Assembly (NCBI RefSeq): GCF_040712315.1
Contig: NC_134020.1
Coordinates: 10,954,751 to 11,018,750, forward strand
DNA from: Castanea sativa
Lineage: Eukaryota; Streptophyta; Magnoliopsida; Fagales; Fagaceae
Length of the DNA: 64,000 nucleotides
Direction: 5' to 3'
Part shown: piece after piece, positions 12,063 to 61,941 of the stretch
Numbering within the stretch: position 1 is the stretch's first letter
How the letters are laid out: each line of letters opens with the position of its first letter
Made by a program: the position numbers and the translations under genes
The notes under the pieces: model-generated
What the model was told of the DNA's origin: nothing
Database searches by the model: none
Seen by the model: the letters and a program-made list of their open reading frames with translations, nothing else

Positions 12063-13521
12063 TTGCCTGCAGAAGTGATTGCTTTGTTGGCTGAGTTCAA
12101 TTCTGTTTTTGCTACTCTTGAGGGGCTGCCTCCCTTAAGGGATCATAAACACCAAATCAGCTTGAAGGAGGGAGCTCAAGCTATCTGTCAGAGGCCTTAC
12201 AGGTACCCTTATTACCAAAAAAATGAAATTGAGAAGATTGTTAAAGAATTGCTATCTGTTGGTTTTATTAGAAACAATAGTAGCCCTTTTGCTTCACCAA
12301 TTCTCTTAGTTAGGAAGGCTGATGGCTCATGGAGAATGTGTATTGACTATAAAGCCTTAAATCAAGAAACCATTAAGGATAAATACCATATACCTATCAT
12401 AGATGAACTATTGGGTGAGTTATTTGGTGCAACTGTTTTTTCTAAGTTGGATTTAAGGTCTGGTTACCACCAGATCAAGATGAAGGAAGAGGATATTCTT
12501 AAAACTGCTTTTAGGACTCATGAAGGTCACTATGAGTTTTTGGTAATGCCATTTGACTTAACCAATGCTCCTTCCACCTTCCAATCCCCCATGAATTCCA
12601 TTTTTAAGCCTTACTTAAGGAGATTTGTCTTGGTATTTTTTGATGACATCCTTGTTTATAGCAAGAATTTGATTGATCATGTGAATCATCTTCATTTGGT
12701 GTTGGAAGTTTTGGTTAATCATCAATTGTATGCTAAACAGTCAAAGTGTGTGTTTGCTTGTAAGGAGGTGGAATACTTAGGACACCTTATCTCAAGTGAT
12801 GGGGTCAGAACAGAACCAAGGAAGACTGCTGCTATGCAACAGTGGCCTATTCCCAAAGATGTTAAGGCCTTAAGGGGATTCTTGGGCTTGATAGGCTACT
12901 ATAGGAAGTTTGTAAAGGGGTATGGTCAGATTGCTACCCCTCTAACAGCCTTGCTAAGGAAGGATTCCTTTGTTTGGAATTCTAAATCTTTTCATGCTTT
13001 TCAACTTCTTAAGGATACAATGTCAAATCCTCCTGTTTTGGCTTTACCTGACTTCTCTAAGCCCTTTGTGGTGGAGTGTGATGCATTTGGTTTAGGTGTT
13101 GGAGCTGTCTTAATGCAAAAACCAAAGGCCAATAGCTTACAAAAACCAGGCCTTGAAGGGTAAAAGTCTTGCCCTTTCCACTTATGAGAAAGAATTAATA
13201 GCTCTGGTGGTGGCAGTGAAGAAGTGGAGACCTTATCTCCTTGGCAAACCCTTTGTGATCAAAACAAACCATCAAAGCCTTAAGTACTTGCTTGAACAGA
13301 AGATTGGAACTCCTGCTCAGCAAAAATGGATTACCAAGCTCCTTGGTTATGCATTTCTGGTTGAATATAAACATGGGAAGGAGAACTTGGTTGTTGATGC
13401 ACTTTGCAGGAGGGAGGATGTTGAGGATGATAATATGGGCACCCTTTGCATTATTTCTTTCCCTACTCCCACTTGGCTGGATGACCTCAAGACAAGCTAT
13501 GATTCTGATCCTACTATCTAG
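12063..13521 (+). pseudogene. Gypsy reverse transcriptase and RNase H
   Basis: The first open stretch (12063-13163, about 366 aa) has all RT blocks in order: [19 protein letters not shown], the CIDYKALN block, [12 protein letters not shown], and the catalytic [10 protein letters not shown] (about 12640-12669), followed by the EYLGHLIS and ALRGFLGL connection blocks and the [13 protein letters not shown] start of RNase H. A frameshift near 13140-13160 moves the reading into 13153-13521, which holds the RNase H middle (LSTYEKELIALVVAVKKW) and the end (VVDALCRRED). The RT catalytic aspartates are intact. The enzyme copies element RNA into DNA. Confidence 0.93.
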
Positions 13522-13559
13522 AAAATCATTCTTGCCATTAAGACAGACTAAGATATTCC

Positions 13560-14393
13560 TGTTGGGTTCACTTTTTGTAATGATTTGTTGTTTTATAAGG
13601 GTAGACTGTTGTTGGGAAGTTCTGCTCAGGATTTGAAGGTTCAAGTGTTGCAGCAGGTGCATGCTAGTCCTTTAGGGGGTCATTCTGGCTATTCCAAAGG
13701 CTCAAGAAGGATATTTATTGGACTGGCACGGTGAGGGACTTAAAACGGTTTGTTAGGGAGCGTGATGCTTGCCAAAGGTTGAAGAGTGATACTTGCTTCC
13801 TTACTGGTCTGTTGCAGCCCTTGGCTGTTCCTGATAAGCCTTGGCTAGACATTAGTATGAATTTTGTGGAAGGACTACCTAGGTCTCAACAGAAGTCAGT
13901 GGTTTTTGTGGTGGTGGACAAGTTCACTAAGTATGTCCATTTCATTCCATTGGCTCACCCTTACATTGCTGCTAAAGTTGCTCATTTGTTCATGCACTTT
14001 GTATTTAAGTTATATGGTATGCCGTCTACAATTTTTAGTGACAGGGATCCAATGTTTACTTCCAAATTTTGGTCTAAATTGATAAAATTGCAAGGGACTA
14101 ATCTGGCTATGTCTTCTTCATATCACCCCTAATCTGATGGGCAGATTGAAGTGGTGAATAAGAGTCTAGAGCACTATTTGAGGGCCTTTGCTGCTGACAG
14201 ACCTCACTCTTGGGTGGATTGTCTACCCTTAGCTGAATTTTGGTTCAATACTAACTTCCACACTTCCATTAAGCTCACTCCATTTGAGGCATTTTATGGC
14301 TATCCTCCTCCTAAGGTTGTGGAATATGTTCCAGGTATTACAAGGGTAGTAGCTGTTGATTCATATTTGCAAGATAGGCAACAGCTCTTTTGA
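13560..14393 (+). pseudogene. Gypsy integrase
   Basis: The HHCC zinc-binding region is visible as VHASPLGGHSGYSK (about 13656-13697), then CQRLKSDT in another frame. The catalytic core reads DISMNFVEGLPRS, VVDKFTKYVHFIPL and IFSDRDPMFTSKFW, then SSYHP-stop-SDGQIEVVNK. All three D, D and E residues are present, but a TAA near 14131 replaces a glutamine codon between the second D and the E. The core continues to about 14393, with further stops after it. The enzyme would insert element DNA into the genome. Confidence 0.9.
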
Positions 14394-14579
14394 TTGCTTA
14401 AGCACAATTTGAATGTTGCTCAAGAGAGAATGAAGTGGTTTGCTGACAAAAAGAGAGTGGACAGGTCCTTTGAGGTAGGGGATTGGGTTTATCTTAAGCT
14501 TTAACCATACAAGCAGTCCTCAGTTCAGTCTAGGAAGTTTGGGAAACTTGCTCCTCGTTTTTATGGTCCTTTCCAGGTT

Positions 14580-14900
14580 GTGCAGAAGGTGGGAGAGGTT
14601 TCTTATAAGCTTGATCTACTTGCTGGGTCACAAATCCATCTTGTGTTTCATGTCTCCAATCTTAAGGCTAAATTGGGTGCTCATGTGGTTCCTAGACCTG
14701 CCTTGCCTGCTGTGAATGAAGATCAGATCTTTGCCCCTGAGCTTGTAGCTGTTTTGGACTCTAGAACTCATCAGTTGAGGAGCAAACTCATCACTCAGGT
14801 GCTAGTGCAATGGCAGGGTGAGAGTAAGGAAGATGCTACCTGGGAGAGTTTATTTGAATTGCAACAGAAGTTTCCATACCTTGTAGGCAAGGTGCTTTAA
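14580..14900 (+). pseudogene. Integrase C-terminal region with chromodomain
   Basis: The 106-codon open stretch starts with the GPFQVVQKVGEVSYKLDL-type integrase tail and the IHLVFHVSNLK block common to plant gypsy elements. It ends in a chromodomain-like fold: VLVQWQGESKEDATWE, with the aromatic and acidic residues of that family. Chromodomains direct integration to histone-marked chromatin. This puts the element in the chromovirus group. Confidence 0.88.
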
Positions 14901-17551: not shown

Positions 17552-18735
17552 TTTTGCTTCCATCCAACTACCTGTTTCAAGTTTAACATGCCAGTTAACT
17601 TCTTCTTCTTCCTTTTCTTTTCTTTTTCTTTTTTTTTTTGGGAAAATTAACATACCACTTACCTTCATGTTAAATTTCACGACGAAACAAATAAGAAAAA
17701 AAAGAAAGAAATAATTATGAGCGAAGCACATACTATTCCAATTCCTGCATAAAAACAAACATGTGGAGTACTTAGCCCTCAATACAATATATAAGGGGTC
17801 AAAATAAGCTTAAACTATTACCCTTATGGGTTTAGAAGGTAAAGATAGTTGGAGTAGATTACAAGATTATAAGTTTAAACTAGAGGCACTATAATGAAGC
17901 ACAATTTTTTTGTACTTTAAAGAAGCGCTCAAATAAAAAAAGAAGGGGAGGGCTATTCAATAGGGATGTATTTGATTTTGGACTTGGGTTAGATCTAATG
18001 CATTTAGTGCATTGGACTTGTTGAGATATGAACACGTGCCCACTAAAAATACTTAAACTAACAACAAGGATTAGACAAAACTAGATAGAAGACTACTCAT
18101 AAACATACAAATATAACTTATAAAATGCCAAAAGTGGTAGTGATGTCGATTATTGAAACAAATTCTAGAATGGTTATACCTTGCCATAATCAACTTTTAG
18201 CATAAAGAAGTGATTGATCAGGTTGGGCTTTGTTGGCGAAATAGTTTGGCCCACTTCCTGTCTTGCTGGAATTATTTCTATTTTTTCCTATTCAAATGAG
18301 AAAAACGATTTATTAGATAATACTAATATATATAAAGAGATTCAAGTGATAGTCTAGTGATAATAATACTCTTTAAAACACTAATTTTATTAATTAATTG
18401 GTACAATTGTAAATTATTTCTTGAATTCTACATCATCCCAATCATTGAAACATAAGAAATATTTTAAGTTATCCTAATCTGTAACCGAAAGAAGTTGAAA
18501 GGAACCTTTTCCCTAATTAATATTCTTAAAATGTCTAATTATCTGCCACTTGGTTATGCTTAGTTCTACAGAAATCACGAGCCCTAAAAATGAAAATGTT
18601 TTGTTTTATATCACGTATTACATTAAGTTGTTACAATGGACATAGAAAGGCAGGTGGGTGAGCAAGAAACTCTCTCTCAGCTAATAAGCATCATAACCAT
18701 TCGTCTTCAGTTCAGTTCCAGACACATTATTATCC
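17232..18735. other. Intergenic sequence with simple repeats
   Basis: It contains a (GA)n tract at about 17520-17550, a pyrimidine-rich tract at about 17602-17638 and AT-rich DNA. Short ORFs over these tracts are low-complexity artefacts. No gene was recognised. Confidence 0.5.
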
Positions 18736-19600: not shown

Positions 19601-20347
19601 CTAGTACATACCATTTTTTGTGTGCAGTTTTTCTATGGTGGCATTCAAGTCTCCCCACCAACACTTGCCGATAAATGTCACATTTATTGCTTTCAATTGT
19701 GGTGTCCTTTGAGATCCATCAGAAAATTTCTCCATTTTAGGAATTTTCTTCACCCTCACCATCTTCAGTGCAGGGAATTCAAAAGAACATTTCGGAGAGA
19801 AACATGTTAGACTAGAGAGGTGCTTAAGTATTAGGCATTTTAATTTAGAGAAGATGATGCTTTCCGTGGATTCCTCTTCATCTGAAATCACTACCTCCAT
19901 ATCCTCACATCCATATAATTTTAACACTTCAAGATGCTTAAGATTTCTTGCTGTTGAAGCTGAAAATAGTTGTCTCAATCCATTACAATGAATAACTTGT
20001 AGGGATCTCAAGTTTAGGAAGATAGTAATTCCAGCAGGTTCCACTGTCCACAAATTCTTCATTCGTGGTAGATAAGTAACCACCATCTCCTTTAGTTTAG
20101 GAAGCAATTCCCCAAAGACTTGCTCTTTTAGGTCAAATATGACTTCTAAACAATCACATTTTGTAACAGTGAGTTTTTGTAGCTCCTGTAATCTTATAAG
20201 CGAATTAGATGGAATGATACTCAACAATTTGTTGCAGGTGTCTACAATCAAGATTCTCAGTTCCCTGACTGGAAGCTTGTCATGCCAAATCTTTTCAAAC
20301 TGATCCAGGTGTTCCAGATGCAATTCCTTGAATGGTTTGGAAGACCA
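19601..20347 (-). CDS. NLR locus, exon 6 (terminal LRR exon)
   Basis: The exon starts after a TTTTTTACAG acceptor at 20347 (WSSKPFKELHLEHLDQFEKIWHD) and runs 248 codons to a TAG at 19601-19603. It encodes divergent plant LRRs of the RGC2/At4g27190 type, with repeated LRSLQVIHCNGLRQLFSAS and LEVLKLYGCEDMEVVI blocks in which central Cys and Leu residues mark the repeats. It ends in RTPQLKAINVTF...GDLNATIEKLH, a typical C-terminal module for the clade. The codon before the stop region also forms a possible donor (ATG/GTATGT), so a further small exon cannot be excluded. The LRRs would serve recognition and autoinhibition. Splicing is inferred. Confidence 0.8.
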   Translation of the reverse strand, partial: WSSKPFKELHLEHLDQFEKIWHDKLPVRELRILIVDTCNKLLSIIPSNSLIRLQELQKLTVTKCDCLEVIFDLKEQVFGELLPKLKEMVVTYLPRMKNLWTVEPAGITIFLNLRSLQVIHCNGLRQLFSASTARNLKHLEVLKLYGCEDMEVVISDEEESTESIIFSKLKCLILKHLSSLTCFSPKCSFEFPALKMVRVKKIPKMEKFSDGSQRTPQLKAINVTFIGKCWWGDLNATIEKLHTKNGMY

Positions 20348-20711
20348 CTGTAAAAAATGTAATTAGTTTTTTTTTTTTTTTTTTAAATAAAAGTAAAAAA
20401 TGTACAAAAGTTTGGATTGATATATGGATTCCCATGGATGACATGTGATGGAAAAGTCCATGAAAAGGCAAGCCAACAAGGTTAAGAAAAGAAGATCACA
20501 TTCGAGGTGGACAAATGTTGAGTTCAAGTGTTTGTTACACCTTAGGAAATAATGATATAAATGTGAGACTCGTGCATGATTAAATTTTAAATTAAAGTGC
20601 TATAAATGGACATCTCCCTAGCCATACACAGCCAATTGAGTCTTAAGCAGGTTAATAGATGAACATTCAGATTACCCAAAGGAATATGACCTTATAAATT
20701 ATCACACTTAC
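20348..20711 (-). other. NLR intron 5
   Basis: A 364-bp intron between a GTAAGT donor at 20711 and a TTTACAG acceptor at 20348. It contains a T16-type tract on the plus strand near 20367-20383. No embedded element was recognised. Confidence 0.7.
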
Positions 20712-21422
20712 CTTCTCAGTGAAGAGGGGTGATTTAATGTCCTGAAGCTCGTTGATCCTAGAAATTCCAATGGAGAATGTATTAATTTTTGGACAGTTCC
20801 TCATTTTCAATGTTACCAAGGATGGAAAGTTGAAACTGATATCACCTGAACTGAAAGTTTGGAGGCTTGTTAGATTTTCGAAAACGATGGAGTTCAAATG
20901 TGGAAAAAAGATCTTAGCAATTGTTTTCCCATCTTTTTGCTTCTCATGTAATGCTTCCATGTTTTTCTCCTGAGTGATTTGCTTTAAACTTTTATTTGTG
21001 GATGTTGAAAAGTGATTGCTCAAAAGTCCAGAATCCTTCACATTAACAACATGTGAATTCTGAGAGTTGAGGATATTTGCAAAGTCCCTGTTGAATATAT
21101 GCTTTAACTTAGGGAGATTACTTAACACCAGTTTGCTAAGCTGTGTGAACTTAGAGGACACACGATGCAATCCCTCAATCTGTGAATCTTCAAGATGAAA
21201 AACTTCTTCCAACGAGTCACACCTCTGTATACTGAGTTTCTCTAAACTCTTTAATTCTGGTAAGGACTTGAATTGCATGAAATGTACCAGACTACAACAG
21301 TTATCAACCTTTAATTCCCTTAGTTCAGAGAAAGACTCTGCTGCAAGCAGGCCTGCATGCGATATCCCTTCAAATTTGTCTAGAGATATGAGGTGCAATT
21401 TCTGCATTTTTACAAATGAAAC
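20712..21422 (-). CDS. NLR locus, exon 5 (LRR exon)
   Basis: A 711-nt phase-0 exon (237 codons) between a CTGCAG acceptor and an AAG/GTAAGT donor. It starts VSFVKMQKLHLISLDKFEGI and ends SPLFTEK, the same junction style as exons 1 and 2 (V-S-F start; F-x-x-K end). LRR blocks such as FSELRELKVDNCCSLVHFM, LEKLSIQRCDSLEEVF, FTQLSKLVLSNLPKLKHIF and FPSLVTLKMRNCPKINTF are clear. A non-LRR, lysine/glutamine-rich loop (about codons 125-165) interrupts them. The frame is fully open. It would extend the LRR domain of the exon-1 NLR, or of a second truncated NLR. Confidence 0.82.
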
Positions 21423-21802
21423 CTGCAGACAAGCTAGTGTGTTAACAACAGTGAAGAACTCAACAATATTATTTTAGAAAAGAAGGAAATAATAATAATA
21501 AAAAATAGAAAATAGAAGTACATCTTGGTGACAGAGCAACTTAAGCTTATTTCCATAAATTGGTCAAGATAGAGCCATCAATACCATCAAGTGTATATTT
21601 TCAGAATTAGGAGTAAAGCTTGCAGATTTTGATGAGAATTAAAATAACTTTTATTGAAATTTATTTGTATCTAAATTGTTATATGTTTTCCATGTCTTGT
21701 GATATAGACTGTGATGCAAGAGGCTCAAAGAGAAAATTATTTTAATTTAGTTTTATTTTATTTTGCAAGTCAATTGTATTTTTATTGGCCATATATATAT
21801 AT

Positions 21803-24430: not shown

Positions 24431-25830
24431 GCCAACCCTAGGTGCCAACTCCTAATGGTTTTTTCTTAGCTTCGTGCTGACTCTAAGCAAACCTAGGTGA
24501 TGACTCAAGGCCCAATCTTTATATTTCTTGTTGTTTAATTTTCCTATTGAATTGTTCTAGTTTTTCAAATTTGGTATCACCAGACCTTGATTTTGAAAAA
24601 GAAGTACAAGTGCCAACAAGTGTCGCTTCGATGTTCATGCAACAAGAACCTACTATAGAGCCTAAATGGCTAGAATCATCTATACTTGATGAAGATTGGG
24701 ATCAAAAGGAGAGTAAAACATAATAAGCCAAGGGGCACATAATTTGAAAGATCAATTTATTGAATTTGCTATTAATCAACCCTCTAGGGTGCATGAAGAT
24801 AACAAGCTTTGAAGTGAAGAAGTTTGATATTGTGGTTCATCTTTTGGATGTAAAAAGGCTCATCTCATTTGCAAAGTTGATTCTGCATATCGATTTTGTA
24901 ATTCCAAATAAATTTAATAATGTGGAATGCAAGGTTTCATTGTTCTCCATGCTCGCCAGGGTGATTCTTGAATTGAAGCAAGTGTTTCATGCCAGAATTT
25001 TGATCCTTCAACACTTCAAAACTTGAGATTAATTTTTCTCCAAATCAGGTGAGGATGATGCAAGAGGCTCAAAGAGAAATTTATTTTAATTTACTTTTAT
25101 TTTATTCTGAAAGTCAATTATACTTTTAATGGCCCATTTTATTTTATTCTAGGTCCTAGTAATTTATTAGGTTTTTAGAATTTTAATTTCTAGAAGCAAG
25201 ATTATTATGTATAAGTCATTAGGTTTCCTATGACAATTAGAATTAGGGTTCAGTACTCTTATATAACCAACATATTGTACTCCTATCAAAGGAATATTAT
25301 TTTGATGAATAAAAGTTTTGATTGAAATTGTCTCATGGTTTGGAGCTGACTCCAATGCTGACTCCTAGGTCCAATCTTTATGTTTCATGTTGTTTGATTT
25401 TTCTATTGAATTGTTTTGGCTCGTCAAATTTGGTATCACCAGACCTTGATCTTGACAAAGAAGTGCAAGCACCAACAAGTGTTGCTTCTTTGTTCATGCA
25501 ACAAGAACCTACTATGAGCCTAAAAATAAAGAATCCTATATAGTTAATGAAGATCGGGCTCAAAAGGAGAGTAAAACTATAGAGGGTGCACATGATGTGA
25601 AATTTGAATTTGTTGAATTTGCTATAGATCAACTCTGTAGATGCATGAAAATAACAAGCTTGATGATGTGAAGAAGTTTGTTAATATAGTTCATCTTGTG
25701 GATCTAGAAAAGCTAGTCTCATTTGTAACGCTAATTCTACATAGAGCTTCTACCACTACCACTTTTATGGTAGGGGACAGGAAACTATTAGATTTGGCAT
25801 ATTTTGAAAAGACTGAGACAAGGTACATAC

Positions 25831-26110
25831 CTTGGTAACACATACATCATAAGTGTCATCTCGAGTATCCCTGATTGCAGAAGTTGCGACTAAATGTCTC
25901 AAGCTGTGACACTTGTCTATCTTCAGCTCTTGTAGTTTTTGTGACAAAGGATGCAAGTTGGACAGAAAGACATTCAATTGTTCATCGCAACTTAATGCAT
26001 GCAGAGAAATTAGTTCGCTGAAAGACTGATCATGAAATTTGTTGTTCAATATCTTCCTTAACTTATCTGGGCAATTTAAACGCATGTGCTCTACGACTGA
26101 AAGTGGACCC
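25831..26110 (-). CDS. NLR locus, exon 4 (small LRR module; 5' phase problem)
   Basis: A TTCTGCAG acceptor at 26111 and an AAG/GTATGT donor at 25830 bound 280 nt. The open frame reads VHFSVVEHMRLNCPDKLRKI, then FSELISLHALSCDEQLNVFL and LQELKIDKCHSLRHLVATSA, ending CVTK. These are LRR residues of the same clade, and the K-end/phase-0 exit joins cleanly to exon 5. The entry does not fit: exon 3 leaves in phase 0, but this frame needs one extra nucleotide. A phase-0 join would stop after about 15 codons. Either it is skipped (exon 3 joins exon 5 in phase), it carries a 1-nt indel, or it is the front of a second, truncated NLR copy. Confidence 0.6.
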
Positions 26111-26374
26111 TGCAGAATTACACATGTTCTATAATTGGAACTGCAGATTCTGAAGAATCAAATATTACAACAAGAAGTCTCTTACTCTCTAGAAATATTT
26201 GTAAAAAGAAGTTCAATTCCAAAGAGGAATGAAAAGAGTTTCAGTTTTATTTTGTAATAGAGATATGAATGATACAAGCTAGTCTCTTTTCAATTCAATT
26301 ATGGTGGTAATTCATATTTCTTCATAGAATTAGAATCAATAAGGCAAAATAATTAGCTCAAACTCTAACTCAAA

Positions 26375-29981: not shown

Positions 29982-30542
29982 TTTTAACTTATAGAGGTCT
30001 TTGATGGCACTGTTAAGGTCACGTGCCCCAAGCCGTACATAGTCTCCTGCCTGCATGTACTTCAACATTGGTGTTTTTAGCTCTCCTCCAGAAAACTGAC
30101 TCATTTGGGGACAATTCTCCACTCTTACTTCCTGCAAGGATGGACATCCAAATGCACAAGTTGAGGAGCAAAACCATTTCAGATTAGGCAAGTCTTCGAA
30201 ATCTAGAGTCTTCAGTAGAGGGAAAGTGATCTCAATTTCCTTCTTCGTTTTCTTTTCTTTGGAGGCTGCTTCTACTGATTCTCCTACTGCAGCAATTTCC
30301 AGCATTGCTTTGCCTTCTTTGGTGGCTCCTTCTGCAGTAGTTTCCTCTGCCATTCTCTCTTTGGTGGCTACCTCTTCTAAGTTTCCTACCACAACAATTT
30401 CGTCCATCATTTTACATGAAGTTATCCTTAGCATTTGGAGATGCCGAAGACCTCTAGCTACGGACAAGGAGAATAGGCTTCTCAAATTGTCACATTTGTT
30501 AACTTGTAGAGAACTTAGATACTGAAAGCCAAGGAATGACAC
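29982..30542 (-). CDS. NLR locus, exon 3 (LRR exon with charged insertion)
   Basis: The acceptor AATTACAG at 30543 and donor AAAA/GTAAGT give a 561-nt phase-0 exon (187 codons). It starts VSFLGFQYLSSLQVNKCDNL, with further LRR blocks LQMLRITSCKMMDEIVV and FPLLKTLDFEDLPNLKWF, then CPSLQEVRVENCPQMSQF. It closes GARDLNSAIKDLYKLK, which parallels the terminal GDLNATIEKLH of exon 6. This suggests it is, or was, a gene-terminal module. About codons 45-95 form a Glu/Lys/Ala/Thr-rich insertion made of three imperfect repeats. If the donor is not used, translation continues to a stop at 29889. Confidence 0.82.
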
Positions 30543-31454
30543 CTGTAATTCAATCAAATCAGTCTTCACAATCTTGACCACACACATATGAACAATTGTA
30601 AGTCATACCGTAACTAAGCCCAATAGATTCAAAAAATAGTTCCCTATACTATATAGGAAGAGAGATAAGTAATAAACTTTATTGAGACTAAACTAAAATC
30701 ACCCAAAGTAAACAGGAAGTATACAAATGGGTATAATTACAATTGATTACAGTGACCTATCAAATCACAAATTGAACAAATAGAATACATCTCACAATTA
30801 ACAACCACCAACAAAGTTTTTAAAAAAGAAAAGCTTTAAGGGGGGTGTTTAGTATTGTTTTTTAAACAACAATTTTCAGTGTTTAAACAATATTACATGT
30901 ATTTCCACACACTTTTTCTCCCACACATATCTCTACAAAACAACAACAACGTTACTAGAAATCTCTTACCATATGGGCCCAAGATTCCGAAAATTCCTCT
31001 CAACATCCTCAAAACTTCAGGAATTACGCTCTCTCCAAATACATCATGTCAAACAGTAAAGAACCGCTTTCCAAATACCATCATATCAATGTCAATAAAA
31101 TATTCCTTGCTAAGAAGTTAGTAAATCTACAACTGTCCTCGAAATTACCCAATACACCCCAAAGAACTTGAAAACCATAGACCACTATTTCGTAGCAATA
31201 GGACAATTAAGTAATTAAATGATCAACTATTTCCCCATTACCTTTATACATGTAATACCAATCCAAGACCCATATGCTCCTCTTAAGCACGTTGTCGATA
31301 GTCAAATTTTCCCCAAAGCTGCAGTCCAAGAGAAGAAAACAACTCTAGGTGGAGACGAGATTGAAGATAGACTATGCATAGCCCAAAGTGATTAAAGAAT
31401 TATAACACTTTGGAGATAAAGGTGAGCCAAAATTAGAACCTAATAGAGTGATGC

Positions 31455-32010: not shown

Positions 32011-32571
32011 ATCACCTTGAAGGAAGTAGGCTATTGAAATCCAAATAGAATTCTAGCTGGGTACTCAAATTCAATTTGAACTCTAATGTAGATTAATTCA
32101 CCTTGAAGTATTATGGTTAGCTACTCTTGGGTTTAAGTCCTAAATTAAGCCCACTCATACTATAAACAGGTTGTGAAGGGCATTCATTTAGTGTGGCCTA
32201 CAATGTGAGTCTAGATGTGTGTACAATGAAGTATAGATTGGCCTGAGTATGGTGCGTGAGAGTTAGGAAACTCTAGTAAAAGGCAACTATTAGCCTATCT
32301 TTCTGTACCTAACGTTCATTGTAATAAATAAAGGTTTTGCATTCTAATTTCATACCCTTATCTTGCACCTTGCTCCCAACAAATAACATGCATCTTTATT
32401 ATATACCTAAAAATAATAGGATATAATACGATGTAATCATGTAAAAATTAGGGAAAAACAAAAAATAAAAATAATAATAATAATAATCAACTTGGATTCT
32501 AGAGGACCAGAAAGCTGATAGAACAGGGAACTAACAGAAGAAACCAGGAGGAGAGAGATTGACTGACTAAC

Positions 32572-33051
32572 CTTTTCATTAAAGAGTGGTCGTCCGGCAG
32601 TTGAGTTCATTTGTCCAGGTTCTTTGTCCACTCTCATGTCATAGACAAATGTCTTCAATTCATGGCAATAATCTATTTGCAAGGAGTTCAAAGCTGGAAG
32701 TTCAACTAAATTTCCTGAGCTGAATCTCACAAGCTTTGGGAGACTTTCTAGACTTATATATTCTAGTTTGGGGAACATCTTTTCCATCCTTCTCTCTTTG
32801 CTGTCTAATTCTTCTGTTAGTAGGACCTCTTCCACACTCAGACATCCTTTTACATACAGCACTTGGAGCTGCAGTAGGCTTCTCGCCATGGAGGAGGATA
32901 ATAGATATTTCAAATTGCCACAATCATACAAAACCATCTTTCTCAAGTTTTGAAAGCAAGAAGATGCCCTTGGAAGAAGTTGGTCATGCCATATCTTTTC
33001 CACATCATTAATTGAGTTAAGTTCCAAGGTCTGCAAATTGGGAAATGAAAC
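32572..33051 (-). CDS. NLR locus, exon 2 (LRR exon)
   Basis: A 480-nt phase-0 exon (160 codons) between GTTGTAG at 33052 and AAG/GTTAGT at 32571. It starts VSFPNLQTLELNSINDVEKI and ends RPLFNEK, nearly repeating the end of exon 1 (PLFNQK). LRR blocks FQNLRKMVLYDCGNLKYLLS, LQLQVLYVKGCLSVEEVLL, FPKLEYISLESLPKLVRF and LPALNSLQIDYCHELKTF are all open. This is the standard exon module of RGC2-type NLRs. Its phase-0 borders allow exon gain or loss without frame damage. Confidence 0.87.
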
Positions 33052-35847: not shown

Positions 35848-38784
35848 CTTTTGATTGAAAAGTGGCTCTATATTGGTTGGCATTGCACTTGAAGATGTGG
35901 AAGGCCTTGTTTTTCCTTGAGAATAGAAGCTCCTGAGCTTTGGTAGATCCTTTAATGTCAAGGAACACAATTGTTGTAATTTAATTATATCCTTCATTCC
36001 ATCATTATCTTCTGTATAATCTTCACTTCTCTCCACCACTATTGCACCCATGATGCTGCATTTGCTTATCACCATTTCTTGTAGTTGCAAAAGGCCTCTA
36101 GCCACAAATGGCCGGAAGACAAATTTCAATTTATTACAGCAGTGCACATTTAAGACCCTCATATTACGGAAAGACCCCGCTGGAAGTTGGCCATAGCATA
36201 TTTCTTCCAAATTGATCAGATTATCGAGATAAAGTGACACCAAGATAGGAAAGGCAACAGATGAAACTAACTGCATCACATCAATGATATATAGGATCTC
36301 AACATTATTTTGGACGTGAAGATGTTTCAACAGTGGAAAACCATCCCGATCTAATTCACAGACATCAGTTTTTATGCCCTTTAATTCATCTATATAAAGA
36401 GCTTCAACTTCCTTCAACAATATCTTAACCACATTCTTCAATTGAATATCAAGCTTTAGTTTCAATGTTCTTGAGGATTCATGCTCATCAAGCCAGCTCC
36501 ACGCATCTCCTATACAGATTTTGTAATTGTTCAGCCGGGCAAATAGCAAATCGTCAGGCAAAACCTTGGTATTTGGAATATGTACGTGCAAAGTGGTTAG
36601 ATGGGACAAATGATTCAGTTCAGCAAGGCAAACATTACTTGTTTCACCATTGATACCCTCAACATTCCATTGCTTAAAGCTGTTCATATACAACTCTTCT
36701 AATTGTAACAAGCTTGATAGGACACCTGCAGGAATCACCTGAAGTTCATGACAATCATTCAAATCCAATAGCTGTAGACGAGTCAATTGTTGAATTTCTC
36801 TTGGTAACTCTTTAACCTTTGAATTCAAAAGGCTGAGAATTTCTAAATTCTTTAGCTCGCCAATCATTGTCAAGTCTCCCAACACACACTGTTCCATTAG
36901 CAACGTTCGAAGGTTTGTTAGGAGATGAAGTGATGCAGGCAGTGATGAAAAATGCATTTCACTAACACTAAAAACTTTGAGTCCCCTCATCTCATCAAAA
37001 AAGGTGTCTGGCATCTTTTCAGACTGATTTTTGATAGACATATAAGATAGCCTCCGTTGTGGGTGTCCCAACCATTCAGGAAGTTCACGGGTATGCCTAC
37101 TAGGTAGGGAGATGGCAGTGCATATGTTTAGTGTATCTTTATTGAGCCATTTTGTCAAGGCAATGTCCTGATCCATGTTCAACACATTATGATCCTCAGA
37201 AGCAATTAATGTGGAAGCATAACGAACAACATTGTGCATGATAACATGCTCACCAGATTCACTGTCTAGCAATAGAGAAGAGTCTTTAAGTTTAGAGATA
37301 AATGAATATTCTTTACTTCTCGCTTCTTGAATTGTATTGGTAACCTGAAATATTCCCAAACCCATACCACGCTTCAGCAAATCTTGGTATGCAATTGAAG
37401 AATCCATGAGGCCACAAATCAAAAACAACTGCTGGATTTCCGGACTTTGTAATTGAATGTAACTGAACTTTATAGTTAAATGTGCGGCTGTCTGCAGTTT
37501 TGTGGTGTCTCTAGGGACAGATTTTCTTAGTTGCTCAGATGCTTTCTTCCATTCAACTGAACTCCTCTTTTTTAATGCCCTGCCAACTACTACAAGTGCA
37601 ATAGGGAGACCCAGGCACACCCGTGCTATCTCAACTGCTGTGGATTGTAGATCAGAATCTTCTATAGGATCACCAATTTCTGCCGTCTTTTTAAGTAACT
37701 CCAAGGCTTCTATTTCTCGTAATGGTGAAACTTGGAGCAAGAAATTAGTTTTACTATGCATCTGATTGAATAAGACATCTGGACTTTTGGAAGTCAACAA
37801 TATTTTGCATCCCTTATGAGTACCCTGAGAGGGAAGTCCTAAGTCCTCCACGTCAAGACTTTCGCAAAAATCATCCAAAATGATAAGGATCTTCTTCTCT
37901 TTCTTTACCCTGTTAAGAAGAAAATCTGCTTTTTTGTTGGCAGGCTCAGAGGAATCAAGTTTCAAACCTAACTTGTCTGCGATTTCTTCTTGAATTCTCC
38001 TCAGATCCTGTTTCTGCTTGACAGTCACCATAACCACTGCATCAAATAAATTGTCTTCCTCAGCTTGACGGACAACTTCTTTGACTAGAGTGGTCTTACC
38101 TACATCATCCCCCCCATAAAGCCCAATCATGTTGATGTTGCGATCTTCCAGTGCCTCCACTATTTTCTTTGAAAACAACATCTTTGATTCCAAGGCTTCT
38201 GTTTCTGGTAATGGTGAAACTTCAAGCAAGAAATTAGTTTTACCATCCATTTGATTGCATAAAACATCTGGACTTTTAGACGTCAACAATATTTTGCACC
38301 CCTTATGACTATCTCCAGAGGGAACTCCTAGGTCCTCCAAATCAAGGCTTTCGCAAAAGTCATCTAAAATGACAATGATTTTCTTCTCTTTCATTATCCT
38401 GTTACGTAGATCTTCTCTTATAGTGACATTTTCCTTATTATCAAATTTCAGACCCAACATGCCAGCAATTTCTCTTTGAATCATTGTCTTAATATCTGGA
38501 TTCTGCTTGACAGTCACCATAACCACTGCATCAAATAAATTGTCTTCCTTAGCTAGACGGACAACTTCTTTGACTAGTGTGGTCTTACCTACACCATCCG
38601 GCCCATACACCCCAATCATGTTGATGCTAGGATTTGACAGTGCCTCCGCAATTTTCTTCAAAATGGACATTCTTGATTCCAAGGCCACAAAACCTCTAGT
38701 AGCTCCTGCAGTTCCAATCCCTTGTGGAGCCATACCAGAGGAAGCTGTATTGAATCTGCCTTCAGCATCAACAGCTTTTTCCAT
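35848..38784 (-). CDS. NLR locus, exon 1: tandem-NB NLR with first LRR block
   Basis: 979 uninterrupted codons from ATG at 38784 to an AAG/GTACGT donor. Residues 1-40 match the linker that follows the coiled coil in this clade (QGIGTAGATRGFVALESRM); the coiled coil itself is missing. NB module 1 has P-loop GPDGVGKTT (61-69), kinase-2 ILDDFC (139-144) and RNBS-B GCKILLTSK (162-170). NB module 2 repeats them at 224-232, 302-307 and 325-333, exactly 163 residues later. It continues to GLPIAL (392-397), the winged-helix region and MHNV (516-519, usually MHDV). LRRs run from about 555 to 979. NLRs are cytosolic or membrane-linked immune receptors and the NB is the ATP switch. The closest known types are the RPS2/RGC2/At4g27190 group. 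Alternative: a pseudogene fragment kept open by chance, unlikely given its length. Confidence 0.93.
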
Positions 38785-40759: not shown

Positions 40760-40794
<35 letters not shown>

Positions 40795-47841: not shown

Positions 47842-48730
47842 ATGGATGACCTTACGAAACATTGGATTGGCCTCTCTTTCTCTGAAAAAGAGGGTCCTAG
47901 TCTTTGTCTGAAAAAAGAACAGGCCGTGGAAGAGTTTTGTTTAGCTGCAAAGTTTCTAACAAAACGGGCACTCAATACGGATGCCATTGCCAGTACCTTC
48001 CAACCATTATGGCGTTCAAAAAATGGTTTCAAAGTAAAAAATATGGGTGACCACGTAATCTTTTTTACTTTTGATAACAAGAATGAGGTGGAACGGATCC
48101 TGTCTAGTGAACCTTGGAGCTTTGATAAACACTTGATAGTGTTACGTACAACACTATGAGAAGGACAACAACATACAAAGCATGGATTTTAACAGGGTTT
48201 TTTTTTTTTTTTGGTACAGGTGCATAATATTCCTTCGAAATTTATGAATCGGGAGGTAGCTGAACAAATCTGTGAGCCCATTGGAACGGTGTGTAGGCCA
48301 CAAAATGCACCAGACGGAGATGGTGGAGGATTCATGCAGGTAAGAATCGCTATAGATATTTTTCAACTTCTCTGCCGAGGACGGATTATATCTTTAGAAG
48401 ATGGTCAAAAACACTGGACTTCTTTCAAGTATGAGAGACTGCCTCACTTATGCTACTGGTGTGGTTTGGGCATCTCACACACGATGATAGAGATTGTGAT
48501 CGCTGGATTGATAGTGAAGGAACCCTATCCACTGAAGATCAGCATTTTGGCTCATGGTTGTGTGCACCACCCTTCTTGGCGTCTCGAAAAAACGTGGTTA
48601 TTGTTCCAGGTTTCTACTCTAAAAATTTGGCGGCTCCACAACAGCACCAACAGCTCCGACCCCCAAACCACCAGCTACGGAGGCTCCAGCGACAACCTCC
48701 CCAACCATAAATGCTCAACCCGATAAGGTA
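47842..48730 (+). pseudogene. LINE ORF1-like (DUF4283 and zinc-knuckle protein)
   Basis: The first ORF (MDDLTKHWIGLSFSEKEGPS...; 105 aa) has the DUF4283 pattern of plant LINE-associated proteins, ending SSEPWSFDKHLIVLR. After a T16 run at about 48198-48212 the frame changes to VQVHNIPSKFMNREVAEQIC, then FKYERLPHLCYWCG. The zinc knuckle continues as GHLTHDDRDCD only in a neighbouring frame (48450-48710), so there is a second frameshift near 48470. The protein would bind element RNA. The T-run falls where a short FW motif is expected. Confidence 0.8.
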
Positions 48731-49319
48731 AACACTGAACCTGGAAAATTTTCAAATTCCTTTCCTTTTTCAGAGACATTGAATGGCTCTATGGCTAAAT
48801 TGTTAACGAAAGATACGGGTCACAAGAGTCAGGGAGATTTTAAATATTCAAGACGTAAGGAGCATGTTAATAGGGATGAGCTGTTCTCGACGAAATTATC
48901 GGAAATTGACCAAGATTTACGGAAATTTGATTCTACAGAACAAATTCTTTGGGCAAAAAATAAGGAGATAAACAAGGAAAAGATATCGAGAACAGGGGGT
49001 TAGCTAAGGCACAATCTAAGGAAGATATTACCCAGCCTGTCATGCATATCTCTCCAGAGAATCAGCCCTCAGCAATGTTATCCGATATCTCCAATTTCTC
49101 ACAGCCTTCATCGGGTAAAAAAATTGCAAATTGGACACGTTAGGTGAGGACTATTAATGGGGTTGACAAAATTATGGAGGAAGTGGTGGGGCAGAATCGT
49201 ATTTTGAAAGAGGGGAAAACTCATGGTGTGTTACCAACTAAGAAATGAGTGGTTTCACAAGATGAGAAGGAAAACTAGAAGATATTAGCGGCGGTTGGAT
49301 TTCAGTCCTGCCAAATGCA
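48731..49319 (+). pseudogene. LINE linker between ORF1 and endonuclease
   Basis: Stop-interrupted coding sequence rich in Lys, Ser and Glu (for example 48779-49003), with no recognised fold. It joins the zinc-knuckle region to the endonuclease, as in plant LINEs. Confidence 0.5.
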
Positions 49320-50343
49320 ATGAGTCTCCTTTGTTGGAACTGCCGTGAGCTTGGAAACTTGCGGACAGAAAATCAGCTTGTGGATTTGGTGCGGGCTAAA
49401 GATCTCTCCGTCGTGTTTTTAGTCGAAACATGGATTGATGAAACAAGGCTAAGTCAAGTTCAGGATCGTTTGAAGTTCAAGAATAAATTTATAGCCCCTA
49501 GGAGGAATAAGTTAGGGGGTTTGGTAATTTTTTGGAAGCAAGAATTTGACCTTATAGTCGAAACTTTTTCTAAAATCATACTGACATTGCGAAAAGAAGA
49601 ACACTGAGGATTACAAGCTTCTACTGAGAGCTAGATACATAAGATAGGCATGAAGATTGGTTGAAACTATGGTCCTTAAAAAACTGTGGGTTTGCTCCTT
49701 GGCTTTGTGCGGGTGATTTCGACAAAATCACAAAACAATCAGATAAAGGGGGGGGGGGGGGGGGGGGGGACGAATTAGGCCTCACAGTCAAATGCAACCG
49801 TTTCGGGATGTTTTGGATGAATGCAGCTTTATGGACATGGGTCACATTGGTCCTCAATTTACTTGGCATAAACACTACGCTAGGTACACGATTTGGGAGA
49901 GACTTGATAGGGTGGTAGCAACGAATGAATGGTTTGATAAATTTCCGGATACAAAGGTATATCACTTGGATGTTACTACATTTGATCACAAGCCTCTGTG
50001 GGTTGTTCTGGAGATCATGGAGTGTTGCCAACATCGTCCTTTCCGCTTTGAACAAATGTGGATGACTGAGAGTGGGTGTAGTGACACGATAGAAGCAGTT
50101 TGGAGGAGTGGGGAAGTAGATCCACGGTCTGTCAAACTACTGAATAAGGTGGATAGATGTGGTATTGAACTTACCAAATGGAGCAAGAAAATTTTTGGAA
50201 GTGTTCGGGCTGAGTTAGAAAAAAAATTATTACAGCAGGCTGAGAGAAGGGCTATTCAGGGGGGCAACACAGTGTGGATGAGAACACTGGAGAGAGAGAT
50301 CAACGGGTTAATGGATAAAGAAGCAAAAATGTGGGCCCAATGA
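49320..50343 (+). pseudogene. LINE endonuclease domain
   Basis: It starts MSLLCWNCRELGN, the usual first strand of the AP-endonuclease-like domain of plant L1 elements. It continues through VVFLVETW and WLCAGDFDKI (about 49697-49726) to IGPQFTWHKH and WERLDRVVA, then FDHKPLWV, where the family has a conserved SDH. A run of about 20 G at 49748-49769 and a frameshift near 49605 break the frame. The rest leads to the RT linker and stops at 50341. The enzyme nicks target DNA to prime reverse transcription. Confidence 0.85.
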
Positions 50344-51420
50344 GCTCATGTAGCTTGGCTGAAAGACGGGGATTGAAATACAAAGTTTTTTCACACAAAA
50401 GCTTTGCAAAGGAGAAGAAGAAATTATACAAATGGGCTCTATGATAACAGTGTCAGGTGGTGCACACAAAAATAGATCATCTTTGATACTGTGGTTGGTT
50501 TCTATCAGTCACTTTTCACCTCAGCTAATCTGAATAGTTTTGATGAGGTGCTGGATGAGACACCATACTTGGTGACTTCGAATATGAATGCCCAATTGAC
50601 AGACACATTTACAGCAGCCGAGGTGGAAGTGGCTTTGAAAGAAATGGTACTGTTGAAAGCACCCAGACTTGACGACATGCCACCACTATTTTACCAAAGC
50701 TAATGGTCTCTTGTTGTTCAGATGTCATTGAAACGATCCTCCACTATCTAAACATGGGCTCCCTGCCCCAATCTTTATGCCACTCTTTCATCACACTCAT
50801 TCCAAAGGTCAAGAACCCAAAATTTATTTCTCAATATAGACCCTTTTGTTTATCTAACGTACTTTTCATGGCCTTCTTAAAAGTTTTGGCGAATAGACTA
50901 AAATCTGTTTTGCCACGACTAATTTCAGAGCATCAATTTGCCTTCTTGATGGGCAGACTCATCTCGAATAACATCATTGTAGCTTTGAGACCTTGCATTA
51001 CATTCAAAACCACAGTTTCAGAAAGAAAAAAAGAAAAAAAAAAAGAAAAAAGAAAAAGAAAAAAAAGATCTATGGCACTAAAGTTAGATATGAGCAAAGC
51101 GTATGACCAAGTGGAATGGACATTCATGGAAAATCTATTGGTAAAAATGCGCTTCAATGAGAGATGAATCCAACTCATGATGGTATGTATTACTTCGGCA
51201 ACATACTCAGTTCTAATAAATGGAGAACCTCAAGGGCATATTACTCCAACTGGGGGACTTAGACAAGGCGATCCACTATCTCCCTATCTTTTTCTTCTAT
51301 GCATGGAGGGTTTACATGGTTTGATCAAAAAGGCTCTAGCTGTGGGGGATATTAGGGGTGTCTCAATTGTCGTAACAGTCTTAAACTAACCCACTTGCTA
51401 TTTGCAGACAAGGCTATTTA
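50344..51420 (+). pseudogene. LINE reverse transcriptase, truncated after the FADD motif
   Basis: RT blocks in order: VALKEMVLLKAPRLDDMPPL, SFITLIPKVKNP, FISQYRPFCLSNV, ISEHQFAFLMGRLISNN, MALKLDMSKAYDQVEW, and LRQGDPLSPYLF. The catalytic stretch reads THLLFADK instead of FADD (about 51390-51413), and the sequence stops being LINE-like just after it. An A-rich run (51022-51066) is inserted before KLDMSKAYD. There are several stops and frameshifts. The C-terminal third and poly(A) are missing, so it cannot move. Confidence 0.88.
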
Positions 51421-56086: not shown

Positions 56087-59000
56087 CTAGACCTTTTTAG
56101 ATGCAAACTTGGAGTTGGGATTATTCCTAATATCAGCTCCAGCATTGGTATAAAGGTTAAAAACCTTCACCAACTCATGAATAAGTGCAACAAAATCATG
56201 TGCTTTTGACACAGGCACTTTTTGTTTGGGAGATTGCTTTAAAGCTTGCAGCTTAAAGCAATTTGGTCTAGTATGCCCAGCTCTACCACAAAAGTGACAA
56301 ACCCACTGTGGTTTGTAGTTTTTCTTGTTTCCAGATTGATTTGTCTTTTTGGGCTCAGACTCACTCAAATCTACTCTAGTTCTTCTAGAAGCAGGAGATA
56401 CTACTTTGTGAACCTTAACATCAGAAAGAGTTTGACGAACAATAGAGGAAGATGTAGCCAGCACAAACTTAGGAGGATTTACTATGGTAGTAGATCCATT
56501 CTCAATAAACCCTAGACCTGTCTTATCAGAAATAGAATTTTGAACATGTAACATCTCATCTAGTTTAGAGGTAGAAGTTCCATCTATTTTTTCTCTAGCA
56601 ATAGATAATTCTAATTCTAAACTTTTTACTTTTTCAAGCAAAGACATTTTCTCAATCTTAACAGAGTTCAGGAGTTCATTAGCATCAAACAACTTTAGCA
56701 GCAAACTTTTCTTTTCCAGTTCAAGAGTGTTTATCTTTTTCAAACCTAATTCCACACTCATAGCATCTTTAGCTGTTGTCTTGCAAAACTTGTTATAAGC
56801 TTCTGTTAAGGTACAAAAAATCACGACATCATGGCCCAAAGTAGCACAGTGAATGCATCCCATGGAAAATAACAATAAAAGGGTCAAAGCTCTCCACAAC
56901 AAAGAGGGGAGTAAGCCCAAGTCCATTAAAAAGGATTTTTAGCCCAAAATTCATGGAGGGATGGACCTTAAGGCCTATCAAACGAAAGGAAAAAAGGGCC
57001 CAACTTATCAAGATTAGAAAACCAAAAAGAGCCCAACAATAAGTATTGAGCCGGGATACCCAGAGGCTGTTAGGGGCTCGGGGTCCTCGAGACGTGCAGA
57101 ACAGCTGAGAATGAAATTAAGACAGCTCAAGAGGAGTACTAGGAAACATGGGAAATGAAGAGCAAAAGCATCATTCCCAATCACTCGATGATGCAAAAGG
57201 GAACTAGAAGGATTGGAAAGTGACAACTCATGAACAAGGAGGCTGGTACCTCGAGGAACCTAGGAAGAAGAACTATGAAGGGAAGTAGCAAAGGGGGCTT
57301 TTAACCTGGCTGGGATAGAATCGGCCCACTTAGGAAAAATGACAAAAAGGAAGGGCAGCCAAAAAAGCTGAGTCTGGAAAAGGAAAATAGAGAAGCCTTG
57401 GAGGAAGAGAAATTGAAGGTCAGCTCCCCCGAAGACACCTTAGAATGGAAGGTTAGCAAGGGGCTTTTGAAAAAAAGGCACCAAAAGAAGAAAACTATGA
57501 GAAACAAGGAATGGATCAGCCACCAAAGTTGCTGGCACGCTACGGGCTCTGTTGCCTAGGGGAGCAAAGAGAGGGAACTAGTGGTACCGCCCTAAGGTGA
57601 CACTATAAAAGGAGGAAGCAGCAATAGTGAAGGTCATTCAAAAACAACGAACCAGAATTGAATCATTGAGAAACAAACTCTGTCAAAAATTCAAAAAAAG
57701 TAGTAAAGAGAAAAGAAATACTGCCCGATGTACCAAGACAGCCACTATAGAACATACTTGGATCCAAAGTGATTCAAACTTTGCAAGTCTTAAAGGCTTA
57801 GAAGGCCATCTAAGTCTGTAACTTTTGAGTTTATTTGGACCTTGTAATAAGTCTTAGTGAGCACTTTGTGATTCATCAATTAGAAGTAATGAAATATTCT
57901 TTAATGATCTGAGGATCCTCAACATTCATTCTACGTTCTTTCCTTATGTACTGTTCCTTTACTATTTTCTTGCTGTTCAATATATATATATATGTACAAT
58001 CTTGCTTGCTAGAATATATGTATTGTAGGATTCCCGCTCTGTGCATCACTTGGTTTGTAAACAACCCTCTTAGCTGCGGTGAACCAAGCCCGTTTCCTTA
58101 ATACAATAACAACAAGGCCTAGGATCCTTGCTTCTATTTTGGGCCTGGACATTTTGTCGAAAACAGACCCTCACAGCTTCCTGCAAATCTGCATTTTCTG
58201 AGAGTTCCCCACTAGAAGGGTTCTCATCGACAGTCTCAATTTCACTTACTACAGCAGTAGCAGTGAAAGCCATAAAGTTTCCTTCTTGATCACTTTCAGA
58301 CTCATGATCAGAAACTTCATCATCACTCAAGGTAACAACCATAGCCTTACCTTTTGACTTCAAGAAGGTTGGGCACTCAGATTTCATATGACTATAACCC
58401 TGACAACCATAACACTATTGTCCTAAAGAATTTGTTGAAGATTGACCTACTTTTTCTTTTGATTTTTCACCATTATTGTTCTTAGCAGTGTCACTCTTCT
58501 TTACATTCCTAGTATCAACATTGTTTCTGTTTCTTGCTTTCCTATTATTGTTTTTCAGAGAGTTTCTAAAGTTCTTGGCAAGATAAGCAATCTCAGTAGA
58601 TAAAAGTTCATCGTCAAATCCACAATCATCAACATCATCAACAGATTTTAAGGCCACAGATTTGAATTTATTTGTCTTTGGCAAATTAGATGCATAGGAT
58701 TGAAGAGATCCTACAAGTTCATCTACAAGGATAGAGTCAATATCTTTACTTTCAATGATGATAGTTACTTTGGGTCTAAAGTTCTCAGTCAAAGATCTAA
58801 GAATTTTCGTAACAATTTTAGGTTGATCATAGATTTCACCCAAATTGAAAGCAGAATTAACAATATCATTTAATCTAGCATAGAATTCATCATAATACTC
58901 ATCTTTAGACATTCTAGTACTTTCAAACGTAGATGTCAACTGCTACACCTTGTTTATTTTTACTGCCTTAGTGCCTTCATACACAGTTTTCAAGATATTC

Positions 59001-59222
59001 CATGCAGTGCGAGCAGTCTCAACATTTGAAATTCTCTTAAATTCTTCCATAAAAACAACATTGAATATCGCATTCATAGCTTTACTATTAAAGCTTGTTG
59101 CTTCCTTTGGGGTAGTGGTCCATTCACCAATAGCTGTGGTTGGTCGTTCCCAACCATTTTCAATAGACAGCTATACTCTTTCTTCTATAGATTTTAAGAA
59201 GACTTTCATTCTAACTTTCTAG
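56087..59222 (-). pseudogene. Copia gag polyprotein (UBN2 type), split by a solo LTR
   Basis: Reading starts upstream of 59222 (ENGWERPTTAIGEWTT) and passes through the UBN2 gag core: FNSKAMNAIFNVVFMEEFKR, AWNILKTVYEGTKAVK, then YARLNDIVNSAFNLGE and ILRSLTENFRPKVTIIIE. A first zinc knuckle CYGCQGYSHMKSEC lies near 58395-58430, after an in-frame TAG. The frame continues to DLQEA, where a solo LTR intervenes (56804-58175), then resumes exactly as YNKFCKTTAKDAMSVELGLK, a coiled-coil-like stretch, and a second knuckle CHFCGRAGHTRPNC (about 56265-56306), ending at 56087. Gag packages element RNA. Stops near 59170, 58940 and 58436 inactivate it. Confidence 0.85.
56804..58175 (+). mobile_element. 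Solo LTR inserted in the Copia gag
   Basis: A 1372-bp segment starts TGTTAAGG and ends CCTCACA and is flanked by a perfect 5-bp duplication GCTTC (56799-56803 and 58176-58180). Removing it and one GCTTC joins the gag codons without a gap. ACTATAAAAGGAGG at about 57602 gives the plus orientation. No internal region remains, so the parent element was removed by LTR-LTR recombination. A (TA)n stretch lies at about 57980-57992. Confidence 0.9.
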
Positions 59223-60208: not shown

Positions 60209-60345
60209 TGTGCTTTGATCAATTATTTGTATGTGTTTTCGAAAGACTTTAAGATTTGAGTATATGTGTATTAAATGATTCTTCACATGTTTGGAAAACT
60301 ATGTTGGATATTTTGAGTGAAATTGTGAAATCAAACAGTCATGAG
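60209..60345. other. Unassigned DNA at the Copia/gypsy junction
   Basis: About 137 bp belonging neither to the Copia LTR on its left nor to the gypsy RNase H on its right. Both neighbours are truncated at its edges, which suggests a deletion or rearrangement with filler sequence. Confidence 0.5.
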
Positions 60346-61515
60346 TAGGGTAATTCTGTTCATACCTTTTTAGCTGCCTAGAAGCATATGCTATCACATT
60401 TCCATGCTGCATAAGCACACAACCAAGACCTTTCTGAGAAGCATCACTGTAAATTACAAATCCCCCTGAACCCGTTGGCAATGTCAAAATTGGAGTAGAC
60501 ACCAACCGGTTTTTCAATTCTTGGAAGCTCTTTTCACATTCATCTTTCCACAAGAATTTAGCATTCTTTTGGGTCAATCTAGTCAAGGGACCTGCTATAC
60601 GTGAAAAACCTTCAACAAACCTCTTATAGTAACCTGCAAGACCCAAGAAACTACGAACTTCAGATACATTTGTTGGTCTAGGCCAATTTACCACAGCTTC
60701 CACCTTTTTAGGATCCACAAAAATGCCATCCTTAGATATTACATGCCCCAAAAACTTTACCTCATCTAACCAAAACTCACACTTCTTAAACTTGGCATAT
60801 AATTTTTGCTCCCTCAAGGCTGTAACACCATCCTCAAGTGTTCTACATGCTCCTCTTGAGTTTTAGAATATACTAAAATATCATAAATAAAAACAATAAC
60901 AAACCGATCCAAATAAGGCTTGAACACACGGTTCATTAAATCCATGAAGGCAGTAGGGGCATTAGTCAATCCAAATGGCATCACCAGAAACTCATAGTGT
61001 CTGTAACGAGTACGAAAGGTAGTCTTAGGTATATCTTCTTGCTTAACCTTGAGTTGATGATAACCTAATCTGAGGTCAATCTTCGAAAAGACTTTAGCAC
61101 CTTGCAATTGATCAAACAAATCATCAATTCTAGGTAAAGGATATTTATTCCTCACAGTGACCTTATTCAACTGCCTATAGTCAATGCATAATCTCATAGA
61201 CCCATCATTTTTCTTTGCAAAAAGAACAAGAGCACTCCAAGGAGATACACTAGGTCGAATAAATCCCTTTTCTAAAAGATGTTGCAATTGCAATTTCAGC
61301 TCCTTCAACTCTACAGGTGCCATGCGATATGGTGCCATAGAAATAGGTGCAATTCCTGGCATTAAGTCAATGGCAAATTCTATCTCCCTATCAAACGGTA
61401 ACCCAGGGAGATTCTCAAGAAATACATCAACAAAGTCCCTCACAATAGGAATGTCATCAATCTTAATCCTTTCCATCTGGTTATCCACCACATATGCAAG
61501 ATAACCTTTACAACC
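60346..61515 (-). pseudogene. Ty3/gypsy reverse transcriptase and truncated RNase H
   Basis: RT blocks on the minus strand: [56 protein letters not shown], and [18 protein letters not shown]. The catalytic block reads [10 protein letters not shown], with the first aspartate of the usual DD changed to Tyr. A frameshift at about 60815 moves to [40 protein letters not shown] and RNase H ([20 protein letters not shown]). Homology stops after QNYPTHD at about 60346. The rest of RNase H, integrase and the 3' LTR are missing. The element is dead on at least these counts. Confidence 0.9.
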
Positions 61516-61792: not shown

Positions 61793-61910
61793 TTGTTATG
61801 AATACCGTTTCGGACCCCGTTTCGGTTTGTCCATTGGAACGGAATATTTCGGTACCGGCCTATTTCAGCGTACTGTTTCAGAGTATTTCGGAGTTACGAT
61901 ATTTTATAAT

Positions 61911-61941
<31 letters not shown>

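Follow-up and report, generated by a model that had tools for sequence, protein, structure and literature searches.

The closest described counterparts of the gene discussed here are the rice nucleotide-binding leucine-rich repeat (LRR) receptors (NLRs) BPH18 and BPH26. According to the parts of their description considered here, they carry a coiled coil (CC), a first nucleotide-binding (NB) module that lacks most of the ARC and whose P-loop departs strongly from consensus, and a second module that is complete; Pib is said to be alike in the discussion of the same paper (PMC5041133). The gene itself lies on the minus strand of a 64,000-nucleotide stretch of Castanea sativa (assembly GCF_040712315.1, contig NC_134020.1, positions 10,954,751 to 11,018,750; this whole stretch is referred to as the window). 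As in the rice proteins, an NB-only first module (NB1) stands straight ahead of a full NB-ARC (with NB2), which is followed by LRRs (PMC5041133). The NB-NB-ARC-LRR architecture is already known from BPH18, BPH26 and Pib, and the remodelling in chestnut is not unprecedented. The rice proteins do possess a coiled coil, however, whereas none was found for the chestnut gene, and the first P-loop of the latter, GPDGVGKTT, keeps the GKT that is missing from GTSGDIREMS in BPH18 and BPH26 (PMC5041133). The likeness is one of layout and need not imply common descent of the duplications. A CC-NBS-NBS-LRR layout (NBS, nucleotide-binding site) is also given for the wheat Pm40 candidate TraesCS7B01G164000, which differs in having a coiled coil and is compared here by layout rather than by module detail (PMC8508864). 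Moreover, some small NB-ARC domains are described as seemingly partial duplications in RefPlantNLR (PMC8559963).

The two NB modules of the chestnut gene are the product of an intragenic duplication. We propose that this event provided an NLR that has lost its coiled coil with a second NB module in the place of the lost domain. As a whole, this account has in our view about an even chance of being right; its part on the origin of the repeat is very probable, while the part on function is tentative. Among the titles listed from the open-licence PMC literature, none was about the gene.

Layout of the gene and its relatives

A single open frame of 981 codons runs on the minus strand from an ATG at 38784 to a stop at 35839, and a splice donor directly after 35848 leaves a coding part of 979 codons. 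This frame, which the first-pass annotation had described as unbroken, contains two stretches that match Pfam NB-ARC, followed by RPS2-type LRRs (PF23247 LRR_RPS2, E 3.6e-22), with further LRR exons matched by relatives. Both features of an NLR, NB-ARC and LRR, are present, and the layout proposed in that annotation is borne out, including its claim that GLPLA and ARC follow the second module only. The exon was also labelled exon 1, a number that varies with the isoform, as one isoform of the Castanea dentata counterpart (P0122) has an extra 5' exon. The features of the exon are as follows.

35848..38784, minus strand: large coding exon of 979 codons with linker, NB1, NB2, ARC and first LRRs
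38686..38784, minus strand: N-terminal 33 residues, at the place of the CC-NB linker of relatives, without coiled coil
38197..38685, minus strand: NB module 1 (amino acids 34-196), NB subdomain only, without ARC
37708..38196, minus strand: NB module 2 (amino acids 197-359), joined to ARC
38678..38685, minus strand: octamer GCCTTGGA at the start of copy 1
38189..38196, minus strand: octamer GCCTTGGA at the junction of copies 1 and 2
37700..37707, minus strand: octamer GCCTTGGA directly past copy 2
38578..38604, minus strand: NB1 P-loop (Walker A), GPDGVGKTT
38089..38115, minus strand: NB2 P-loop (Walker A), GGDDVGKTT, with Asp at position 4
38353..38379, minus strand: NB1 kinase-2, IIVILDDFC
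37864..37890, minus strand: NB2 kinase-2, ILIILDDFC
38275..38298, minus strand: NB1 RNBS-B/sensor 1, CKILLTSK (Arg to Lys)
37786..37809, minus strand: NB2 RNBS-B/sensor 1, CKILLTSK (Arg to Lys)
37597..37611, minus strand: GLPLA-type motif GLPIA, C-terminal to NB2
37231..37239, minus strand: MHD motif, read as MHN, C-terminal to NB2

Relatives were collected in three protein searches, from which the best 120 matches each (of 794, 1034 and 268) gave 340 distinct proteins in addition to the query. The closest among these matches is C. dentata ACB092_08G013900, which is 99% identical and differs from the window gene by five amino acids in the first 980 residues. It carries the same two NB modules. 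The remainder of the C. dentata protein, read from isoforms P0002 (representing a cluster of 22 sequences) and P0122, maps to further exons in the window, down to 18193. Their coordinates are alignment edges to P0002 unless P0122 is named, and the splice edges are inexact.

32524..33051, minus strand: LRR exon
29982..30557, minus strand: LRR exon
25828..26115, minus strand: LRR exon
20679..21425, minus strand: LRR exon
19610..20350, minus strand: LRR exon (isoform P0122)
18193..18288, minus strand: final exon of isoform P0122

By sequence, the gene is placed as an NLR of the At4g27190/At4g27220-like group, names of which occur among the matches listed. The best PDB match by sequence is 9h2l, a wheat G10 NLR (E 4.6e-34). 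Proteins of the At4g27190-like type are members of CC-G10. Judged by its closest relatives, the chestnut gene would be derived from CC-G10 without being a complete member, because these relatives belong to the group while the N-terminal CC-G10 domain was not found. Compared with the CC-G10 NLRs RPS2, RPS5 and WAI3 as far as described (PMC12856790; PDB 9h2l), 9h2l is nearest both by sequence and by the fold of NB1, whereas the chestnut gene differs by the undetected coiled coil, the doubled NB and the altered P-loop, sensor 1 and MHD.

Origin of the tandem NB repeat

At the protein level, NB1 and NB2 are identical at 115 of 164 aligned positions (70%, E 1e-77). The DNA contains repeats of 222 and 203 nt that are 86% and 85% identical at a spacing of 489 bp. 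The repeat unit is this in-frame 489 bp segment, which covers the NB subdomain alone and is arranged head-to-tail. The motif offset of exactly 163 residues reported earlier holds, although two compensating one-codon indels lie behind the exact figure, one codon being private to each copy at different places. NB1 and NB2 come out as sisters (support 100/99) in a tree of 75 modules, from which the intragenic duplication follows. The modules in this tree were selected: one protein in three was taken from P0003-P0121, together with tandem, Fagales, legume, Rosaceae, Citrus and other proteins picked by name, and modules were kept only if more than 75% of the profile was covered. In addition, the unit is flanked at both ends by the 8-bp GCCTTGGA, which recurs at the junction, as would be expected if part of a parent gene with a single NB had been duplicated in tandem between two short matching sequences. 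Hence, a single microhomology-mediated or unequal exchange within the gene very probably produced the repeat, presumably in a plant ancestral at least to C. dentata and the window plant. The parent gene would already have carried the P-loop Asp, the kinase-2 Cys and the sensor-1 Lys (see below), since changes shared by both copies are most simply explained as older than the duplication.

NLR genes are generally prone to mis-assembly, and the earlier annotation had named a collapse or duplication error as the finding that would undo it. An assembly or annotation artefact is nevertheless very unlikely, because, of 486 bases aligned between the copies, 85 are different, and because the C. dentata record shares the arrangement apart from its five amino-acid differences; the copy junction also stays in frame. 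Two other origins were considered. Import of NB1 from another paralogue is unsupported, given the sister relationship of the copies, and a whole-gene fusion is ruled out by the spacing of 163 residues as opposed to at least 638 residues in double-NB records of Vitis, Rosa and Tetracentron, which we read as whole-gene fusions.

Nei-Gojobori (NG86) estimates between the copies gave a synonymous divergence (dS) of 0.362 and a non-synonymous divergence (dN) of 0.161. The ratio of 0.445 (bootstrap interval 0.27-0.73) represents a purifying trend, although constraint on one copy alone could give such a pairwise value. An identical run of 49 bp between the copies (38501-38549 and 38012-38060) lies 3' of the P-loop, with permutation values of p 0.004 for all sites and p 0.11 for third positions alone. 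It may reflect either gene conversion between the copies or constraint.

Neighbouring NB matches less than 260 residues apart occur in ten of the 341 proteins among the matches listed: three records of the chestnut gene (including that of the window), three Prunus proteins, one each from Senna and Mucuna, and one each from Citrus and Rhamnella. In the Citrus protein, the first NB is incomplete with its P-loop kept, while the Rhamnella case is one NB split in two. The Prunus proteins P0240, P0308 and P0315 come from three species; their first NB is devoid of DD in all three and of Walker A in P0240, whereas P0308 and P0315 begin downstream of Walker A. Senna tora P0222 has three modules and Mucuna pruriens P0227 two, none of which carries G-x4-GKT or DD. 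The Prunus, Senna and Mucuna proteins resemble the chestnut gene in belonging to the same broad family and in having NB-only repeats, with a spacing of 168-209 residues where modules are complete; they differ in their degenerate motifs, as opposed to GKT and DD in both chestnut modules. In the tree, the modules of Senna and those of Mucuna group within species, so that these duplications look like separate events. Chestnut stands beside the legume arrays with a support of 90/86, a grouping that long branches could produce. Eight Fagales records were looked at by name (five of Quercus lobata and one each of Fagus, Carpinus and C. mollissima), and none is among the proteins with two modules listed here. 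At 35 to 48% identity they resemble paralogues rather than orthologues and are therefore uninformative on the timing of the duplication.

As a side observation, P0222 and P0227, in which Walker A and kinase-2 are degenerate throughout, may be legume NB-array genes.

State of the two nucleotide switches

For comparison, 328 family modules were taken from the 341 proteins, excluding the eight tandem-NB proteins and modules with a profile coverage of 90% or less. At the 46 columns conserved to at least 85%, NB1 keeps 40 and NB2 keeps 37 residues. Family scores fall at the 9.5th percentile for NB1 and at the 4th for NB2, low yet within range. That neither copy is obviously dead, as the first-pass annotation had put it, is true insofar as both retain G-x4-GKT and DD. 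Several other positions speak against it. At position 3 of the P-loop, both copies have an Asp that none of the 328 family modules shares. Position 4, a Gly in NB1 and in all 328, is Asp in NB2. In both copies, the kinase-2 Trp is replaced by Cys (Cys in 4 of 328) and the sensor-1 Arg by Lys (1 of 328). The MHD motif ends in Asn, a residue found in three relatives as compared to Asp in 244. NB2-ARC departs at all four of P-loop position 4, Trp, Arg and MHD; among 272 scoreable relatives, 238 show no departure at these sites, 29 one, four two and one three. The P-loop Asp residues are presumably reminiscent of changes at G12/G13 of Ras, a likeness that we take as a hint only. In characterized NLRs, the sensor-1 Arg is described to touch the ATP gamma-phosphate, and autoinhibition can be relieved by alterations of the MHD motif (PMC8813719); in ZAR1, the Arg is given as R297 (PMC11139913). 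The shared loss of Arg and Trp, the P-loop Asp of NB2, the altered MHD and the undetected coiled coil weaken a reading of the sequence as two intact switches.

These observations also bear on a two-site control, in which nucleotide is bound and exchanged by both modules and the receptor is controlled by the two together. It would agree with G-x4-GKT and DD in both copies and with the NB folds predicted for both modules, but NB1 has neither ARC nor MHD, no link is known by which its nucleotide could bring about a conformational change, the sensor-1 Arg is missing twice and Gly4 is replaced in the P-loop of NB2. We hold this mechanism to be quite improbable. Slightly less probable still, and speculative, is an integrated decoy, with NB1 imitating the NB of other NLRs to lure an effector that attacks NB domains. 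NB1 is indeed somewhat better conserved by its count of kept columns and by tree branch length (0.16 vs 0.27 for NB2), yet the nine changes of NB1 and 16 of NB2 relative to the family consensus are not significantly different (p 0.23), and only one of the eight outgroups listed gave p<0.05 for the rates. A slower evolution of NB1 was rejected on this basis. To our knowledge, no effector of this kind has been described, though no search for one was made.

Structure prediction had been suggested as a check. NB1 folded alone and NB2 are both predicted to adopt NB folds, with 9h2l ranking first for NB1. When NB1-NB2-ARC was modelled as one piece, the result for NB1 was unusable, mostly with a predicted local distance difference test score (pLDDT) under 50, which we attribute to the coiled coils of relatives being aligned over NB1.

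Missing coiled coil, possible function and surrounding window

Full-length relatives have a coiled coil at their N-terminus. None was detected when 38500-64000, i.e. about 25 kb upstream, was scanned with a profile built on 258 N-termini (best E 0.62), while all 257 counted profile members score at least 67 bits; none is present in the two C. dentata isoforms P0002 and P0122 either. Compared by eye, the 33 residues N-terminal to NB1 look like a CC-NB linker. In CC-G10 resistosomes, as far as their description was considered, the coiled coil rests directly on the nucleotide-binding domains (NBDs; PMC12856790). Since NB1 is joined at this very place, a cap over NB2 would be the simplest model.

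The most likely function is that of a non-executing receptor or modulator with NB1 in the place of the lost coiled coil. Without the latter, the protein would probably not assemble the usual calcium-permeable resistosome on its own. NB2-ARC-LRR would constitute the remaining, altered switch, whereas NB1 probably holds nucleotide constitutively or caps NB2 structurally at its N-terminal end, because no ARC or MHD gates it. The protein may then work as a sensor or modulator, either depending on a partner NLR or interfering with it.

The main rival is decay, i.e. an NLR that has lost its coiled coil and erodes, with the NB duplication as a neutral by-product. The failure to find a coiled coil, MHN, the Arg-to-Lys and Trp-to-Cys replacements, the additional P-loop Asp, the low family scores and the degenerate tandem copies of Prunus and legumes would all fit. 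However, none of the seven aligned exon stretches contains a stop codon, the dN/dS between copies is below one at its value given above, GKT, DD and most conserved NB columns are retained, and C. dentata has the same frame. Decay is rather unlikely on balance. Several points nonetheless weigh against a role of NB1 in place of the coiled coil. MHN, the missing coiled coil and the low scores are also compatible with decay; a single constrained copy could yield the observed ratio; the joint model gives no usable NB1 position for a packing on NB2; and a coiled coil may lie beyond the 25 kb of the window or in a missed exon.

More far-reaching, and improbable as a whole, is the idea of an executor-less NLR with two nucleotide-competent NBs in cis, in which NB1 occupies the coiled-coil position on the NBD ring and the state is set by this second, ungated site. 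It would further hold that the At4g27190-like group tends to undergo NB-only duplication again and again in independent events (Castanea, Prunus, legumes), and that among the adjacent pairs seen chestnut alone has Walker A and DD in two complete modules. Two Walker A/B modules in one polypeptide would permit a direct test of the role of an ARC-free NB, for which receptors with an unconserved first P-loop, e.g. BPH18, are less suited. The similar unit lengths of NB-only duplications in chestnut, Prunus and legumes suggest that NLRs can acquire the NB subdomain as a module separable from the rest, and pose the question of what an NB substituting for a coiled coil is capable of.

A search of the window with 218 homologues detected no further NLR. 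Matches fell into seven clusters, of which six are exons of the chestnut gene, and the seventh is a single weak homologue match (58697-59107) within transposon-like open reading frames (ORFs). By eye, Ty3/gypsy gag-pol-like ORFs (reverse transcriptase, RNase H, integrase) are found at 11262-14900 and 3086-3490 on the plus and at 60299-64000 on the minus strand, and ORFs resembling long interspersed nuclear elements (LINEs) and copia gag at 48193-51167 (plus) and 56087-58942 (minus). A GA microsatellite is situated at about 40763-40793, some 2 kb upstream of where the NLR starts.
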